From Desulfobulbaceae bacterium (GTDB lineage: Bacteria > Desulfobacterota > Desulfobulbia > Desulfobulbales > SURF-16): 44,436 bases of DNA. Location: NCBI GenBank assembly GCA_020444175.1, contig JAHLLM010000045.1:1-44436 (forward strand), in the 5' to 3' direction. Shown here in pieces: positions 14,584-36,640 of this stretch (positions are counted from its first letter, which is position 1; each line of letters begins with the position of its first letter). The notes under the pieces are model-generated. The model did not search any database, was not told the DNA's origin, and saw only the letters and a list, made by a program, of their open reading frames with translations. Position numbers and translations under genes: made by a program.

Positions 14584-14608
14584 GTCAAATGCCTTTTGAC
14601 GCATGCTG

Positions 14609-14661
14609 TAGGTCGGGAAACCCTTCCCGACACTGAATAGTCGCCATGGGTATGGCGACCA
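14609..14661. repeat. Paired REP palindromes upstream of the methyltransferase
   Basis: Two perfect 8-bp-stem hairpins lie side by side: GTCGGGAA-ACCC-TTCCCGAC at 14612-14631 and GTCGCCAT-GGGT-ATGGCGAC at 14640-14659. The loop and flanking GTAGG/CCAAC text match the REP pairs around the RAYT gene near 34 kb, with altered stem bases. They fall in the apparent N-terminal extension of the methyltransferase frame, a reason to place its start downstream. Confidence 0.7.
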
Positions 14662-30475: not shown

Positions 30476-31780
30476 ATGATCCGAAACAAACTTACTCATA
30501 CCAAAGTCCTCATCATCATTCTCTCAATTTTCTGTATCAATACCGAATCTATTTACGCCTCCTGTGAAGCTAACTTTAGTTGGCTCCCTAACTCAGAACC
30601 CGATATTGATGGTTACAGAATTTATTATGGTACAGAAGCTGGGGTATATATTGATTATAAAGATATTGAAACACCTGTCATAGTAGATGGCAGAGTAACT
30701 GGACGTATTTCAAATTTAAATCCAGGTGAATCATATTTTTTTAGCGCAACAGCCTATAATACTGATAACCTTGAAAGTGATTTTTCCGATGAAATATCTT
30801 GGACTTGTCCCAGCGAAGTTGTAGAGGAGCCTGTTGTAGAGGAACCTGTTGTAGAGGAGCCTGTTGTAGAGGAGCCTGTTGTAGAGGAACCTGTTGTAGA
30901 GGAACCTGTTGTAGAGGAACCTGTTGTAGAGGAACCTGTTGTTGCAGCACCAGTTGTTATACCCAATGTTGTTGTTGAAGAAACTGTAGTTGAAGAGCCT
31001 GTTGGTGAGGATATTGTTGTCGAATATCTTGCTGAAGATGTTGTTGAGGAAGAAGACAATGTGGTTCAGGTTGAAAACTTTATAACGCGATTTTATGAAG
31101 AATGTCTGTATCGTTCCCCTGATATAGATGGGTTGGACACTTGGACAGAAGCATTATTAACCGGCACCTTAAGTGCAACTGTGGTAGCGGAACGTTTTAT
31201 TTTTAGTAATGAATTTACAAATCTTAATACTACAAATGAAGAATTTGTGACAACATTATATAAAACTTTCTTTAATCGTGATCCGGATACTTCAGGATAT
31301 GACGCTTGGGTAAATTCCTTAAACAGTGGCGAAAAAAGTCGTGAAGATGCTTTAAATGGTTTTACATCATCAACAGAGTTTAAAGCTTTATGCAATTCTT
31401 TTGGGATAACACAACAACCCCAAGGATCTCTTATAGAACAATTCGTAACCCGATTTTACGAAGAATGCCTTGGAAGACAACCAGATCAAGAAGGGTTTAC
31501 AAACTGGGTTAATTCATTAGTAAACGGTTATTATACAGGCGCAGATTTAGCCGAAAAGTTCATTTTCAGTAACGAATTCGAAAATTTCAACACATCAAAT
31601 GAAGAATATATTACGATTTTATACACAGCTTTTTTTAATCGTACAGCTGACACAAAAGAACTTCAAGCATGGATAAATGTATTAAATAATGGTTCTAGCC
31701 GAGAAGAAGTCCTTAATGGCTTTGTTGCTTCCAGCGAATTTATAGCTCTTTGTGATTCTTTTGGAATCCAGAATAAATAG
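30476..31780 (+). CDS. Secreted fibronectin-III / EPVVE-repeat / double-DUF4214 protein, 434 aa
   Basis: Probable surface adhesin or matrix protein. A Sec signal peptide (about 1-27, ending IYAS) leads into a fibronectin type III domain (NSEPDIDGYRIYYGTEAG... ISNLNPGESYFFSATAYN) of about 85 residues. A stalk of eight exact VVEEP repeats and further acidic VVEE-type residues follows. The C-terminal half holds two DUF4214 tandems, each with two subunits: FYEECLYRSPDIDGLDTW with FFNRDPDTSGYDAW, and FYEECLGRQPDQEGFTNW with FFNRTADTKELQAW. Each tandem has one Cys in FYEEC and one in F(K/I)ALC, a possible disulfide pair. It ends SFGIQNK. Translation is probably controlled by the GEMM-I riboswitch in its leader, so it should respond to the motile-to-sessile signal. 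A strong terminator follows. Confidence 0.9.
   Translation: MIRNKLTHTKVLIIILSIFCINTESIYASCEANFSWLPNSEPDIDGYRIYYGTEAGVYIDYKDIETPVIVDGRVTGRISNLNPGESYFFSATAYNTDNLESDFSDEISWTCPSEVVEEPVVEEPVVEEPVVEEPVVEEPVVEEPVVEEPVVEEPVVAAPVVIPNVVVEETVVEEPVGEDIVVEYLAEDVVEEEDNVVQVENFITRFYEECLYRSPDIDGLDTWTEALLTGTLSATVVAERFIFSNEFTNLNTTNEEFVTTLYKTFFNRDPDTSGYDAWVNSLNSGEKSREDALNGFTSSTEFKALCNSFGITQQPQGSLIEQFVTRFYEECLGRQPDQEGFTNWVNSLVNGYYTGADLAEKFIFSNEFENFNTSNEEYITILYTAFFNRTADTKELQAWINVLNNGSSREEVLNGFVASSEFIALCDSFGIQNK
30818..30937 (+). repeat. Eight tandem 15-bp repeats encoding VVEEP
   Basis: Eight in-frame units of GTTGTAGAGGARCCT (R = A or G) lie head to tail. Only the one A/G position varies, so the array is young or kept homogeneous. 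Copy-number change would lengthen or shorten the protein stalk by five residues without a frameshift. Confidence 0.9.
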
Positions 31781-31873: not shown

Positions 31874-33352
31874 TTACGTATCGGGAGCAGAAATATCTGA
31901 ACAAGGATCACAGGCGGAACCTTTCAGTTGGAAAAACAACTTTAAACCCTTTTTCACCGTACTGGAAAATATCTTTGGCGAAAAATAACTTCCCGCCACC
32001 CTCTTGTTGATTTCAGCCAAAGTTGGATAGGGATGAATTGCCCCTGCCAGTGTGCTCAACTTTGTTTTGCCGTTTAAAATTGCCACCCACTCACTGATGA
32101 GTTCGCCGGCATGGGGACCGCAGATCTGTACACCAATGGGTTTTTCCTTTTCATCCAGGATCATTTTTATTCTACCGACCTTTTCGCCTTCAGCAAGGCT
32201 GCGGTCATTGCCATTGAACTCCTCGCTCCAGATCTGGTAATCAATACCAGCCTTCTTTGCAGCCTTTTCATTCAGACCGATACTGGCAAGCTCAGGATCG
32301 GAATAGGTGCACCAAGGCATCCAGGTATAATCCGCCTTGCGGGGCAGATGAAAAATTGCATTGCTGACAACGATGCCTCCTTCGTACCCTGCGGCATGGG
32401 TAAACTGAAAACTGCCGTTGATATCGCCGGGCGCATAGATATGTTTATGGTTGGTGCGCAGTCTGTTGTCAACGGCAATGCCTCGCTTATCATGGATGAG
32501 ATCAATGTCATCAAGACCAAAACCTTCCGTGTTGGGAGAGCGGCCCAGGGCGACAAGCAGGGTATCGACCTGCAGATTTACCTCTCGCCCTTCGGCATCC
32601 GTAATATGAACCTCACGTTTTCCATTCAGGTTCCGCGTGGCATTCACCTTGGCATTGAGATAAAAGGTAACCCCTTCCTCAGCCATAACCTGCATGACAA
32701 GGTCTGCCATATCCTTATCCTCCTTACTGAGGATCTGACCGCTTCTCTGGATAACAAAAACCCTCGTTCCCAGACGATTAAAGGCCTGGGCCATTTCGAT
32801 GGCAATGGGACCCGCTCCAAAAATGACCATGGCCCGGGGCAGTGAATCCAGATAGAAAATCTCCTTATTGGTGATATAAGGCGTTGTATCCAGTCCGTGA
32901 ATGGGTGGGGGTGCAGGAGATGACCCTGTGGCAATAACCCAGGATTTAGCTGAGACATGTTTGCCGTTTAAGGCAACCGAATGTTCATCAATAAAACGAG
33001 GGGAACCGAATTCAACTTTGGCCCCAAGTTTACAGAAGCGCTCAACAGAATCATGTTTCTGGATGGTTGCAATGACCGACTTGATCCTTTCCCTCACCTT
33101 GGAGAAATCAACAGGTGGCACATCCAGCTCAGGCAGACCGTAACGCGTTGCCATTTTCATGGATTGATAAACCTTCGCAGATTTTATCAACGTTTTACTG
33201 GGCACACATCCAAAATGAAGACAGTCTCCTCCAAGTTCAGGCTCTTTTTCAATCAAGAGTGTTTTGGCTCCAAGTTGTGCCGCACCGGACGTAGCGGTGA
33301 GTCCGGCAGCGCCGCCACCAATTACACCAAGATCAAAATCAAATTTTGTCAT
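31874..33352 (-). CDS. FAD-dependent pyridine nucleotide-disulfide oxidoreductase (MerA/Lpd-like), 492 aa
   Basis: Class I flavoprotein disulfide reductase. It has an FAD-binding GGGAAGLTATSGAAQLG, the redox pair in GGDCLHFGCVPSKTL, an NAD(P)-binding motif VIFGAGPIAIEMAQAFNRLG, a second FAD motif TNHKHIYAPGDINGSFQFTHAA, and a dimer-interface HPYPTLAEINK with the catalytic His. The family includes dihydrolipoamide dehydrogenase and mercuric reductase. There is no N-terminal HMA domain and no MerA C-terminal Cys pair of the usual kind; the tail CDPCSDISAPDT has CxxC near its end. The substrate is unknown. GGAG lies at a good distance from the ATG. Repeat A copy 3 begins only 18 bases upstream, so the element must supply or displace the promoter. 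Genes of this kind often adjoin a TVP38-type membrane protein, which here lies 1.4 kb upstream, beyond the RAYT insertion. Confidence 0.87.
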   Translation of the reverse strand: MTKFDFDLGVIGGGAAGLTATSGAAQLGAKTLLIEKEPELGGDCLHFGCVPSKTLIKSAKVYQSMKMATRYGLPELDVPPVDFSKVRERIKSVIATIQKHDSVERFCKLGAKVEFGSPRFIDEHSVALNGKHVSAKSWVIATGSSPAPPPIHGLDTTPYITNKEIFYLDSLPRAMVIFGAGPIAIEMAQAFNRLGTRVFVIQRSGQILSKEDKDMADLVMQVMAEEGVTFYLNAKVNATRNLNGKREVHITDAEGREVNLQVDTLLVALGRSPNTEGFGLDDIDLIHDKRGIAVDNRLRTNHKHIYAPGDINGSFQFTHAAGYEGGIVVSNAIFHLPRKADYTWMPWCTYSDPELASIGLNEKAAKKAGIDYQIWSEEFNGNDRSLAEGEKVGRIKMILDEKEKPIGVQICGPHAGELISEWVAILNGKTKLSTLAGAIHPYPTLAEINKRVAGSYFSPKIFSSTVKKGLKLFFQLKGSACDPCSDISAPDT

Positions 33353-33472: not shown

Positions 33473-33539
33473 CTTTTGACTGTATTGGTAAATAAACTTT
33501 TATTAGCGGCATCACTGCTGCCATATCAATCTTGATCCT

Positions 33540-33994
33540 GTCGGCATGGGGATGCCGACCTACGGTTTTTCCCTGCCCTTGATTAACTTGATAGCAACAT
33601 GCAATATGCATCGTGTAGGGCGGCAAACCCTTGCCGCCTTTTCAATCTTGGGCACGTCGGCATAGGGATGCCGACCTACAATTTTTCCCTGCCCTTGATT
33701 AACTTGATAGCAACATGCGATATGCATCGTGTAGGGCGGCAAACCCTTGCTGCCTTTTCAATCTTGGGCACGTCGGCATGGGGATGCCGACCTACAATTT
33801 TTCCCTGCCCTTGATTAACTTTATGGCAACATGCAATATGCATCGTGTAGGGCGGCAAACCCTTGCCGCCTTTTCAATCTTGATCCTGTCGGCATGGGGA
33901 TGCCGACCTACGGTTTTTTTCCCTGCCCTCTATTAACTTGATAGCAACATGCGATATGTATCGTGTAGGGCGGCAAACCCTTGCCGCCGTTTCC
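33540..33994 (+). repeat. Four tandem 116-bp units, each with two REP palindromes
   Basis: Units begin at 33540, 33656, 33772 and 33888 (period exactly 116). Each holds one hairpin with arms GTCGGCAT/ATGCCGAC and one with arms GGCGGCAA/TTGCCGCC, joined by a conserved spacer (CCCTGCCCTTGATTAACTT then CAACATGC). The array ends next to the stop codon of the RAYT gene, and a fifth, single unit lies on that gene's other side. This is the typical setting of REP/BIME arrays with their transposase. Confidence 0.9.
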
Positions 33995-33999
33995 TTTGC

Positions 34000-34548
34000 C
34001 TATTCATAATCCAGTTTTTTGATAATTTCCGGTTCTACGGTTCCCCAATCACGGGTATACACCCCGCGTTTCGTCCACTCACTAAAAGATGAATGAGGAT
34101 AATCAGCAACACACTTCACAATCTCATGTTTCACAGGATTAAAATGTATATAATCAAGATGCCTTGCAAAATCGCATTCATCTCGAATTACATGATCAAA
34201 GAATCGTTTCTGCCAGAGAGGAAACGTGGGCATAAAATAATTTTTGTCGGCAAAGGTTTGCCGACCTACGCCGACATGTTCCTTCATTCTCCATGTAACC
34301 TCCCGCTTGACCGCACTTACCACTTTGGAAAAATTGTTATTCTCCAAACATTCAAACATCCAATGAATATGGTCCGGCATTATTACATGACCATAATGTA
34401 GATATGCATGCTTCTTTTTTATGTGCCGCATTGCTTCAAGAAGGAGGTTTACTCTCGCGTCATCTACAAAAAGTTTTTGTCTTTTGTTGGTGACTATAGT
34501 TACAAAAACAGGATGATGAGCCAGATAGAACCGTCTATAATTCGGCAT
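34000..34548 (-). CDS. REP-associated tyrosine transposase (RAYT), Y1/HUH family, 182 aa
   Basis: Single-strand nuclease/transposase related to IS200/IS605 TnpA, thought to mobilise REP palindromes. The HUH motif is in VIMPDHIHWMFE, and the catalytic Tyr is in HLDYIHFNPVKHEIV, followed by PHSSF near the end. AVKREVTWRMKEH and PLWQKRFFDHVIRDE are family landmarks. Between these two, the residues VGRQTFADKNYFMPTF are extra and are encoded by a REP palindrome inserted in frame. All catalytic residues look intact. It is flanked by REP units on both sides (33540-33994 and 34576-34723) whose text resembles the internal palindrome. It sits between the oxidoreductase and TVP38 genes. Confidence 0.92.
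   Translation of the reverse strand: MPNYRRFYLAHHPVFVTIVTNKRQKLFVDDARVNLLLEAMRHIKKKHAYLHYGHVIMPDHIHWMFECLENNNFSKVVSAVKREVTWRMKEHVGVGRQTFADKNYFMPTFPLWQKRFFDHVIRDECDFARHLDYIHFNPVKHEIVKCVADYPHSSFSEWTKRGVYTRDWGTVEPEIIKKLDYE
34246..34265. repeat. REP palindrome inside the RAYT coding sequence
   Basis: A perfect 8-bp-stem hairpin, arms GTCGGCAA and TTGCCGAC around AGGT, followed by CTACG. The same 20 bases recur at 35597-35616 outside any gene. It is translated as GRQTFAD within the transposase and keeps the frame. Confidence 0.88.
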
Positions 34549-34575
34549 AAAATGCCTTTCCGGTTGTTTTTATGA

Positions 34576-34723
34576 TTGTGTAGGGTGGTAATATATCTTT
34601 GCCGCCATATCAACCTTGGTCACGTCGGCATAGGGATGCCGACCTACGGTTCTTCCCTGCCCTTGATTAACTTTATGACAACATGCAATATGCATCGTGT
34701 AGGGCGGCAAACCCTTGCCGCCG
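34576..34723 (+). repeat. REP unit upstream of the RAYT start
   Basis: One 116-bp-type unit: hairpin GTCGGCAT/ATGCCGAC at 34624-34643 and hairpin GGCGGCAA/TTGCCGCC at 34703-34722, with the same spacer as the main array. A degenerate palindrome (TAGGGTGGTAA...TTTGCCGCC) precedes it. Confidence 0.85.
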
Positions 34724-34734
34724 TTTCCTTTGTC

Positions 34735-35424
34735 TTACCCTTTTTTCATTTTCACCCGGGCCATTATCTTCTTGACGGTAATCGGGAAAATTCCGAGTAT
34801 GGCAAAGGAAATCAGCAGGCTCGGTGACAATATCCCTGAAAGTGAGTCAATTTTTGCAAGCTCCTTTCCTGCGTTCACATAAACGATGGTGCCGGGCAGC
34901 ATACCGAGCTGGGAGACCCAGTAATATTGCAGCAGAGGAAGCTTTGTCACACCCATGGCAAGGTTAATGAGAAAAAAAGGAAATGCAGGAACCAGACGCA
35001 TGGTAAAAAGGTAGAAGCCGCCCTCATTCTCGATGCCCCTGTTGATCGTCTCAAGTTTTTCCCCAAACTTGTTCTGCACCCAGTCTCGCAACAGAAAACG
35101 CGAAACAAAACATGCCAGTGTTGCACCGATTGTGCTGGCAAAGGAAACGATTATTGTCCCCGGAATGAGCCCGAAAAGCCCTCCTCCGGCCAGGGTCATA
35201 ATGGCCGCCCCAGGCAGGGAAAGGGCTGTTACAAGAATATAAATAGCCATATAGGAGGAAATAACGAGCATCGGCTTTGCGCTGTAAAGATCCGCAAAAC
35301 GATATTGGGATTGCTTGAGGTAATCCAGCGTAAGATAGTCGCCAAAACCAAACAATTTAAAGGCTGCAACAAGGACAATTATTGCAAGAACAATTGCAAG
35401 TTTCTTGGTTACATTTTTATTCAT
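34735..35424 (-). CDS. TVP38/TMEM64 (DedA-like) membrane protein, 229 aa
   Basis: Integral inner-membrane protein of the SNARE-associated/VTT fold. One N-terminal helix (KKLAIVLAIIVLVAAFKLFGF) is followed by the core with ALSLPGAAIMTLAGGGLFGLIPGTIIV and ASTIGATLACFVSRFLLRDWV, then FTMRLVPAFPFFLINLAMGVTKLPLLQYYWVSQLGMLPGTIVYVNAG (quoted in pieces: RLVPAFPFFLINLAMG, GMLPGTIVYVNAG). It ends KKIMARVKMKKG. Related proteins are lipid or undecaprenyl-phosphate scramblases, but the role of this subgroup is not settled. ATG 35424 is preferred to 35451 because the protein then begins with a basic MNKNVTKK. It is on the same strand as the MerA-like oxidoreductase, a common partner, with the RAYT gene and REPs now between them. 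Confidence 0.88.
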   Translation of the reverse strand: MNKNVTKKLAIVLAIIVLVAAFKLFGFGDYLTLDYLKQSQYRFADLYSAKPMLVISSYMAIYILVTALSLPGAAIMTLAGGGLFGLIPGTIIVSFASTIGATLACFVSRFLLRDWVQNKFGEKLETINRGIENEGGFYLFTMRLVPAFPFFLINLAMGVTKLPLLQYYWVSQLGMLPGTIVYVNAGKELAKIDSLSGILSPSLLISFAILGIFPITVKKIMARVKMKKG

Positions 35425-35492
35425 CAGTGTGAAACACCGGGCAAAGTACATTACATAGGAAATGGAAGGATTGTCGTCGTTACCATCATTGT

Positions 35493-35625
35493 TCCGGCGG
35501 CATGGGGATGCATACCTACGATTATTTCATATTTTGTCGTAAGCAACATGCTCGTGTAGGGCGGGAATCCCTTCCCACCATTTCCATCCTGGTCATGTCG
35601 GCAAAGGTTTGCCGACCTACGGCTT
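35493..35625 (+). repeat. Further REP palindromes between TVP38 and glucokinase genes
   Basis: Three partly decayed or variant units: GGCGGCATGGGGATGCATACC near 35497 (given as arms GGCAT/ATGC), GGCGGGAATCCCTTCCCACC near 35559, and the perfect GTCGGCAA...TTGCCGAC at 35597-35616, which matches the copy inside the RAYT gene. They mark the right edge of the REP region. Confidence 0.8.
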
Positions 35626-35638
35626 TCCGCCCTTTCAC

Positions 35639-36640
35639 TCAGTCTTCAGTCCTCAATTTTGATTCTATGTAAACCGCAGCTCCGGTCAATGCCGCCTTGG
35701 GATTCATGATCACGGCAACAGGGATATTCCGGACAAGTCCGCTCATTTTTCCCCTTGCTTCAAAACGGCTGACAAATGCTTCCTCCTGGAGAAAAGCCAG
35801 AATGCGGGGAGCAATTCCTCCCCCCAGATAAATGCCGCCTCTTGCAAGAACCGTCACGGCAAGATTTGAGCAGGCTTCTGCTAATATTTTTACAAACAAA
35901 CGAACTGTTTCCTGGCAAAGAGCACACTCTTTCTCTGAATCAAGAGCTCCTTGAACAATAACAGGAGAAGGATCACTCCTTCGAGACAAAGCATCCGCCA
36001 GCCAGACTTGTTCGGAGAAATGCTTTTCGGTTACCAAAAATCGATAAATATTCGGCAATCCCATGCCCGAGCAGAGAGATTCAAAGCTGACATGCTGGTC
36101 TGTGAAGAGAAACCCGAGGAGTTCCAGTTCAATCTGATTTCTTGGAGAAAAACCAGCATGTCCTCCCTCTGAGGCACAGGGCTGGTATCCTTCTCCAGTC
36201 CAGACGGAATAGGAAACACCAAGGCCAGTTCCTGGAGCAACTATGCCAAGTGTTCCCTGCTGGACAGCCCTGCCCTGCTTAAGCACAACGAGATCTGAAG
36301 CAGTGAGAGAAGGAATTGCACTTGCAATGGCGACAAGGTCATTTATGATAATAACCTTTTTAATCATAAACTCAGTTTCTATCTCAAGGCCGTCGATCTC
36401 CCAGGCTAAATTTGTGAGTTGCACCTTGTTGGCCAGGACAGGTCCCGCCACACCAAAACAGGCATATTGAATCGTAATTCTCTTATCATCAAGAAACTGA
36501 TGGAGCAGCTCAGAAAAGGAAGCGTATTGTCTGCTTGGCAGAGTAGCTTCATACAGGGGACGAGCGTATCCTGATTTCGTATCAAAAACAGCAAGATCCG
36601 TTTTGGTACCACCCACGTCTGCGGCTAAATAATAGGACAT
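35639..36640 (-). CDS. glk: Glucokinase, 333 aa
   Basis: ATP-dependent glucokinase of the proteobacterial Glk family, which phosphorylates glucose to glucose-6-phosphate. The phosphate-binding motif is AADVGGTKTDLAVFD (residues 6-20). FGVAGPVLANKVQLTNLAWEIDG, ndlVAIASAI (IINDLVAIASAIPSL), IVAPGTGLGVSYSVW and ASEGGHAGFSPRNQIE are family landmarks. TVLARGGIYLGGGIAPRIL is the C-terminal nucleotide-site motif. Length is normal (about 320-335). Glucose released by the GH15 enzyme at 40.7 kb could be its substrate, and glucose-6-phosphate feeds both glucose-6-phosphate dehydrogenase at 43 kb and, via glucose-1-phosphate, RfbA next door. It is divergent from rfbA. Confidence 0.93.
   Translation of the reverse strand: MSYYLAADVGGTKTDLAVFDTKSGYARPLYEATLPSRQYASFSELLHQFLDDKRITIQYACFGVAGPVLANKVQLTNLAWEIDGLEIETEFMIKKVIIINDLVAIASAIPSLTASDLVVLKQGRAVQQGTLGIVAPGTGLGVSYSVWTGEGYQPCASEGGHAGFSPRNQIELELLGFLFTDQHVSFESLCSGMGLPNIYRFLVTEKHFSEQVWLADALSRRSDPSPVIVQGALDSEKECALCQETVRLFVKILAEACSNLAVTVLARGGIYLGGGIAPRILAFLQEEAFVSRFEARGKMSGLVRNIPVAVIMNPKAALTGAAVYIESKLRTED

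Follow-up and report, generated by a model that had tools for sequence, protein, structure and literature searches.

The window, that is, the whole stretch of 44,436 nucleotides from a Desulfobulbaceae bacterium that was analysed here, is one contig of a 5.4-Mb genome. A cluster on its minus strand comprises genes for glucokinase, a VTT-domain protein, a REP-associated tyrosine transposase (RAYT) and an FAD-dependent oxidoreductase. The features of the locus are as follows, with the basis of the assignment in brackets.

31874..33352, minus strand: FAD-dependent pyridine nucleotide oxidoreductase, downstream neighbour of the RAYT gene (Pfam and profile match)
33526..33993, no strand assigned: four-unit 116-bp tandem array with two inverted REPs per unit (TRF, REP positions)
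34000..34548, minus strand: RAYT, group-2-type, 182 aa (ORF, profile and fold match)
34150..34152, minus strand: presumed catalytic tyrosine Y133 of YIHFNP (Y133-IHF-N137-P138; invariant column)
34210..34215, minus strand: W112-Q113, start of the motif after the loop, aligning with W94/Q95 of E. coli TnpAREP
34216..34275, minus strand: alphaC-beta4 loop with the REP-encoded peptide, residues 92-111 (limits set here), predicted to be disordered (AlphaFold2)
34246..34269, minus strand: perfect REP in the RAYT gene, GTAG on the coding strand, translated as VGRQTFAD (residues 94-101)
34363..34371, minus strand: HUH motif H60-I-H62 (invariant columns)
34624..34722, no strand assigned: single REP pair immediately ahead of the start of the RAYT gene
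34735..35451, minus strand: VTT-domain membrane protein, upstream neighbour of the RAYT gene here and in the orthologue of genome G005 (Pfam)
35495..35520, minus strand: decayed REP, 69% to the family reference
35556..35620, no strand assigned: REP pair past the VTT gene, whose copy at 35597-35620 is identical to the internal REP
35639..36640, minus strand: glucokinase gene of the conserved cluster (Pfam and profile match)

The initial annotation described the span from 33540 to 35625 as a complete REP/RAYT locus, and this description holds: the RAYT gene lies among 116-bp REP repeats in the arrangement of a REPtron, although the span also takes in a separate gene, that of the VTT-domain protein at 34735-35451. 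The four-unit array is likewise confirmed, TRF giving 4.0 copies of the 116-bp unit at 33526-33993 with 91% matches, as are the single units on the other side of the gene (the pairs at 34624-34722 and 35556-35620, plus the decayed copy at 35495-35520). Each 116-bp unit consists of two hairpins in opposite orientation, and the hairpins of the locus belong to one REP family, GTAGG[T/G]CGG.... Of the 14 REPs in the window, 13 lie within 33540-35620. A single REP variant at 14608-14631, far from the RAYT gene, precedes an in-frame ATG in an ORF whose product has DUF4214 and methyltransferase domains. Elsewhere in the window, a 434-aa ORF at 30476-31780 on the plus strand contains a 15-bp tandem repeat (30818-30942, 8.3 copies, 97%) coding for repeated VVEEP, after which come repeated FVTRFYEECL-like modules; it is perhaps a secreted repeat protein.

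The 182-aa product matches NF047646 (the REP_Tyr_transpos model) at 136.5 bits, where the cut-off is 80, its Pfam domain is Y1_Tnp, and the catalytic-motif residues are invariant, H60, H62, W112, Y133 and N137 being constant throughout a 65-row alignment; the intact HUH/Tyr transposase of the initial annotation is therefore well founded. The protein has the HUH motif and the single tyrosine with Y---NP that mark RAYTs, and inverted GTAG-tagged palindromes flank its gene and recur elsewhere in the genome. Specifically, DHIH, WQ, YIHFNP, S153-S154 and a loop at residues 92-111 between alphaC and beta4 correspond to the features tabulated for subclass 2.2, or RAYT group 2 (D-H-u-H, a W motif, YIHxNP, SS in the tail and an alphaC:beta4 insertion; Table 1 of Quentin 2018, PMC6006769), a placement made by comparison of motifs and not with that paper's own HMMs. 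The table prints WE for subclass 2.2, whereas both this RAYT and that of E. coli have WQ. The NH[IFV]H and YIxNNP motifs of subclass 2.4 (RAYT group 4) are absent, DHIH and YIHFNP standing in their place, and so is the beta3-alphaC insertion, as the REP codons 94-101 come after helix 73-91. An in-frame REP within the gene is a subclass 2.4 feature that this RAYT does share, but at a different site, so that on its own it does not confer membership. The genome has a second RAYT, 33% identical (G000 contig 27, 20809-21318), beside which a simple pattern scan found no member of the window's REP family.

The central feature is the REP inside the gene, and the reported in-frame hairpin is indeed present: the 24 nt at 34246-34269 form codons 94-101 (GTA GGT CGG CAA ACC TTT GCC GAC) and are translated as VGRQTFAD. 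As single-stranded DNA they fold into an 8-bp stem with a 4-nt loop at -8.9 kcal/mol (z -4.75, equalled by 1 of 200 shuffles). Within three mismatches of this sequence there are 27 sites in the 5.4-Mb genome and none for a reversed control pattern, so that the internal REP is no chance resemblance; the count is an underestimate, since other variants, such as the copy at 33540-33563, differ by more than three mismatches. When the open frames at these 27 sites were judged, with Pfam searches for eight of them, the RAYT site was the sole one in the middle of a credible gene. At the majority of the other sites, the open frame is at most about 105 codons long. Among nine longer or otherwise notable frames at eight sites, seven had no Pfam match, and in the Pfam-matched frames (L013 and L025) the REP precedes both the first domain and an in-frame ATG. 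It should be noted that a REP hit in the RAYT gene is less surprising than one elsewhere, because the REPs cluster around it.

Could these residues be ordinary protein sequence that resembles a REP by accident? The loop that holds them is no longer than in many RAYTs, but 24 of 24 nucleotides are identical to two other genomic REPs, the copy at 35597-35620 and one on another contig, the control pattern has no sites, and the G005 orthologue has REPs at the same place. We regard this reading as refuted. The initial annotation had further expected that alignment with RAYT homologues would reveal an insert. By length it does not, and we rejected that description: the spacing from HxH to W is 52 residues in the window RAYT, and 98 of the 140 RAYTs measured fall between 48 and 52. 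The loop is thus of normal length, and the REP either lies within it or has taken the place of part of it. Longer spacings occur in some genes with a REP in this loop (84 in G005, 69 in L197, 56 in L236) and also in genes in which no in-loop REP was found (L191, 62; L228, 57; L270, 56; L094, 55); in L050, with 57, the REPs are elsewhere.

The AlphaFold2 model of the window RAYT (mean pLDDT 87.2, pTM 0.82) places the REP-encoded peptide between helix 73-91 and strand 117-120 in a loop of low confidence, where residues 91-110 have block means of 69 and 54; in the G005 model (mean 78.8, pTM 0.74) residues 105-139 fall below 50. The nearest solved structure is that of E. coli TnpAREP with a REP hairpin, 4ER8 (fold E 4.5e-13, TMt 0.81; by sequence, E 8.9e-19). 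By alignment, the loop sits between the helix bearing K82 and the W94/Q95 motif of the E. coli protein, in which K82 and Q95 are among the REP contacts (PMC8266576), and the alphaC:beta4 insertions of subclass 2.2 have been described as close to the REP-recognition region (Quentin 2018, PMC6006769). It is therefore conceivable that the REP-encoded peptide forms part of the surface that recognizes REPs, so that insertion of a REP would alter substrate choice, and it fits this idea that a set of group-2-like genes described below has REPs in this loop and in none of the other mid-gene segments. Yet the loop is predicted to be disordered, it differs by 32 residues between two orthologues with related REPs, and it is much shorter in E. 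coli TnpAREP, and we consider a recognition role quite unlikely.

A family search of 22 genomes gave some match in 12, among which the only orthologue is that of G005, from another genus. The search for orthologues was extended beyond G005 to the order and the class, each with 257 genomes; all other matches in the order, with E-values up to 1e-25, are 32-38% identical, and shorter matches of 44-59% identity exist in the family and in wider genome contigs. The G005 RAYT is 65% and 63% identical over its two halves (63% in the alignment) and is syntenic, lying between the VTT gene and the oxidoreductase gene as in the window. The VTT gene was found in 18 of the 22 family genomes, and in a motif scan of these 18 loci only two, the window and G005, showed a RAYT motif beside the VTT gene together with a REP array; the scan did not label every neighbour at each locus and gave isolated pattern matches in a few. 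In G010, which belongs to the window's genus, the VTT gene is followed by the oxidoreductase gene, with no REP-like site. Elsewhere in G005, at L132, the open frame of a nucleotide-sugar epimerase-like gene (named by eye) has a REP at its 3' end, which would encode some of the last residues.

The two RAYTs have 182 and 214 aa, and the 32-residue difference lies in the loop. The longer loop of G005 holds three in-frame REPs: a perfect antisense copy, a decayed sense copy and a sense copy with a weakened stem. The aligned sense copy is partly palindromic, with a stability of -3.7 kcal/mol versus -8.9 in the window. Outside the loop, the two genes have a dN of 0.25 and a dS of 2.99 (NG86; dN/dS about 0.08) and agree at 7 of 38 fourfold sites; synonymous sites are saturated, and the RAYT protein is under purifying selection. 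The REP common to both genes is identical at 22 of 24 nt and at all eight third codon positions, whereas none of 158 other eight-codon stretches matches at all eight third positions and eight reach 21 of 24 nt. Such a pattern is hardly that of a passive relic. Given the saturation of synonymous sites, inheritance without renewal or selection is insufficient to account for the identical third positions, which could have come from exchange with other REPs, from re-insertion or from selection on the DNA. The initial annotation held that homologues with the same residues but no palindrome would mark the segment as ordinary protein sequence. G005 comes close to such a homologue in one respect, in that it reads VGRQSFPD over a weakened stem, but its DNA here is 22/24 identical and lies among REPs, so that the objection carries little weight.

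To see how widely the arrangement occurs, we drew on the order, the phylum and wider genome contigs for RAYT ORFs, taken by E-value rank rather than at random and partly selected by similarity to the window protein, and screened the interior of each for sequence matching its own flanks, requiring a stem of at least 6. Such matches were found in 17 of 166 non-redundant ORFs; flanks taken from other loci gave 2, 4 and 2 of 166, three of these being REP-like sequences common between loci. In seven of the 166, namely the window, G005, G083 (L197), G081 (L227), G357 (L280), G423 (L272) and G173 (L236), a REP of the gene's own flanks lies in the same loop, and in all seven a stretch of 9 to 15 codons separates the end of the nearest copy from the W motif that follows. 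These genes hold ten in-loop copies, five sense and five scored as antisense, that of L236 scored so only because it has no 5' GTAGG. L236, at 94.7 bits, is a more distant RAYT whose REP is without the GTAGG head; it is counted among the seven and stands outside the tree described below. In the G081 RAYT (L227, 1057-1770), the stretch with the HUH motif, present in its relative L197, is missing, while the frame is open and two in-loop REPs are kept; this RAYT is probably inactive.

The other ten matches comprise one in frame elsewhere in the gene, four N-terminal, three through duplicated RAYT sequence and two through other repeats. The first is in L050 (338-1138), a RAYT-like ORF below the NF047646 cut-off (70 bits) with YIANNP and two oppositely oriented in-frame REPs before the HUH motif, which recalls subclass 2.4. 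The N-terminal matches (L039, L040, L056 and L216) were not counted as in-gene REPs, as they precede the conserved domain, in a stretch for which the start codon is not certain. Further N-terminal matches occur in L041, L081, L091, L205, L207 and L233; a possible start precedes the REP in L041, L207 and L216, and it is possible that N-terminal REPs are translated in some RAYTs. The matches in L060 (twice) and L266 arise from duplicated RAYT sequence and not from a REP, and the repeats matched in L080 and L230 have no GTAG head.

The preference for this loop was also apparent when 103 group-2-like genes were divided into 75-nt segments and each was scored against the flanks. Scores of at least 15 were reached by four loops, compared with 0/102, 0/103, 0/103 and 0/103 for the other mid-gene segments. 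Three genes had such a score outside the loop, in each case in the 5' part: L072, and L033 and L095, whose matches are not palindromic. Each of the other mid-gene segments had one weak match at 14-14.5 (L064, L265, L255 and L167). The counts exclude genes with matches of at least 45 (L097, L266, L238 and the carrier G005, L032), G005 falling to this long-match filter because its long REP loop runs over into the neighbouring segment; L227, with no HUH stretch, and L236 lie outside the group-2-like motif filter.

A quick tree built without the loop (108 rows, six carriers) addresses whether these REPs descend from one ancestral insertion in group-2 RAYTs, preserved in certain lineages through selection on the DNA and degraded in all others. 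At least four changes are required to place the six group-2-like carriers, which are interspersed with non-carriers; shuffled labels gave a mean of 5.9, and 1 of 500 shuffles was as low. The carriers are thus clustered more than shuffled labels, partly because they include two pairs of close relatives. The strongly supported branches are compatible with a single origin and do not force more than one gain, and in L272 and L280, of different families, the REP has the same distance from W, the same orientation and the same frame (AHPT). An order search with L280 matched 3 of 11 genomes, its own included. The loops of L270 and L275 faintly resemble, by eye, decayed copies of a carrier REP. Scored for decayed REPs, the loops as a class are only slightly more similar to their own flanks than to swapped ones: the loop was the top segment for its own flanks in 33 of 103 genes, and for swapped flanks in 26, 19, 24 and 18 of 103, an excess so slight that we make no claim of general decayed copies. 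A single ancestral insertion strikes us as improbable.

The initial annotation had proposed that the RAYT either tolerates a copy of its own substrate or is regulated by it. Tolerance of a copy of the putative substrate within the coding sequence is upheld, since the same is found in the G005 orthologue and in other lineages. Regulation, in which the RAYT would limit its own expression or copying by binding the internal REP, either in the single-stranded DNA of its gene or in its mRNA, is not supported. It has in its favour that the internal hairpin is perfect and stable, that both orthologues keep a perfect in-gene REP, and that the shared copy is conserved in DNA beyond the protein. The mixed orientation of the in-loop copies stands against it, five being sense and five scored antisense: TnpAREP has been reported to bind the REP and not its complement (PMC8266576), so that a consistent role in mRNA would need the sense strand. 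The flanking REPs already provide such sites, the length of the loop is unconstrained, as the 32-residue difference illustrates, and the aligned stem of G005 is weakened, although G005 nonetheless keeps a second, perfect antisense REP in the same loop. We think autoregulation unlikely.

The explanation that we favour, and hold to be probably right, is the insertion of a REP into a tolerant loop with subsequent refreshment of the copy. The locus is a REPtron, in which a group-2-type RAYT lies inside a cluster of REP hairpins presumed to be mobilised by it, and we propose that REPs insert at high density in the neighbourhood of their own transposase. A REP landing in the transposase gene would mostly destroy it. 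The alphaC-beta4 loop, predicted to be disordered, may however accept extra or replaced residues, and a REP of 24 nt (or 21 nt) preserves the frame and is readable without a stop in some frames, so that hits in the loop would survive. The same outcome is seen in several RAYT lineages whose REP sequences differ. The internal copy would then be held to the REP sequence through exchange with REPs nearby or through further insertions. The explanation is built on the position and frame of the REP, the orthologue, the purifying selection, the recurrence in one loop and the predicted disorder; what we infer is a RAYT that mobilises these REPs, a neutral loop, and a copy renewed by exchange or re-insertion. 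The internal REP is probably a recurrent, tolerated accident of a known kind, and a control switch is not demonstrated. The preference for one loop could reflect function as well as tolerance. A bolder idea, which we rate as a long shot, is that the alphaC-beta4 loop of group-2 RAYTs is self-writing, insertions of a RAYT's own REP tuning which REPs it accepts, so that enzyme and substrate change together.

The window RAYT shares with the group-2 E. coli TnpAREP and its REPtron (4ER8) the fold, the HUH-Y1 residues, WQ and the GTAG-tagged flanking REPs, and differs in that the E. coli alphaC-beta4 loop is short. To our knowledge, the E. coli TnpAREP gene has no internal REP. The E. coli REPs have a bulge (PMC8266576), whereas those of the window are perfect stems. 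In-frame REPs inside tnpAREP genes have been published as unique to subclass 2.4, in which the variable insertion is beta3:alphaC and the motifs are NH[IFV]H and YIxNNP (Quentin 2018, PMC6006769), in contrast to alphaC:beta4, DHIH and YIHFNP in the window. What we describe is a group-2-type RAYT with a REP in a different loop, the general phenomenon being already known from subclass 2.4. In the literature searched we found no report of REPs inside group-2 RAYTs, but such cases could be shown in Figure S10 of PMC6006769. GTAG/CGTC REPs are also translated in frame inside protein genes, as in recB of X. campestris and X. oryzae, where they lie at about the same site; the hosts named are DNA-repair and other genes, and the main-text intragenic sections name no RAYT with an internal REP (Di Nocera 2013, PMC3733652). 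Rickettsia palindromic elements resemble the window REP in being palindromic repeats, in frame, in likely functional genes (via PMC3733652). The window differs from them in that the host gene is that of the repeat's presumed transposase. We know of no cognate transposase linked to the Rickettsia elements.

With the survey, a feature that had been called unique to subclass 2.4 is now known from another RAYT group as well, and from another site in the protein. For the questions of how REPs spread and what RAYTs do, transposase genes with a REP of their own inside are natural insertion experiments, in that they show where the surface of the protein can be altered. Pairs like that of the window and G005, together with REP-less relatives, permit a direct test of the effect of the loop and its hairpin on binding, cleavage and expression.
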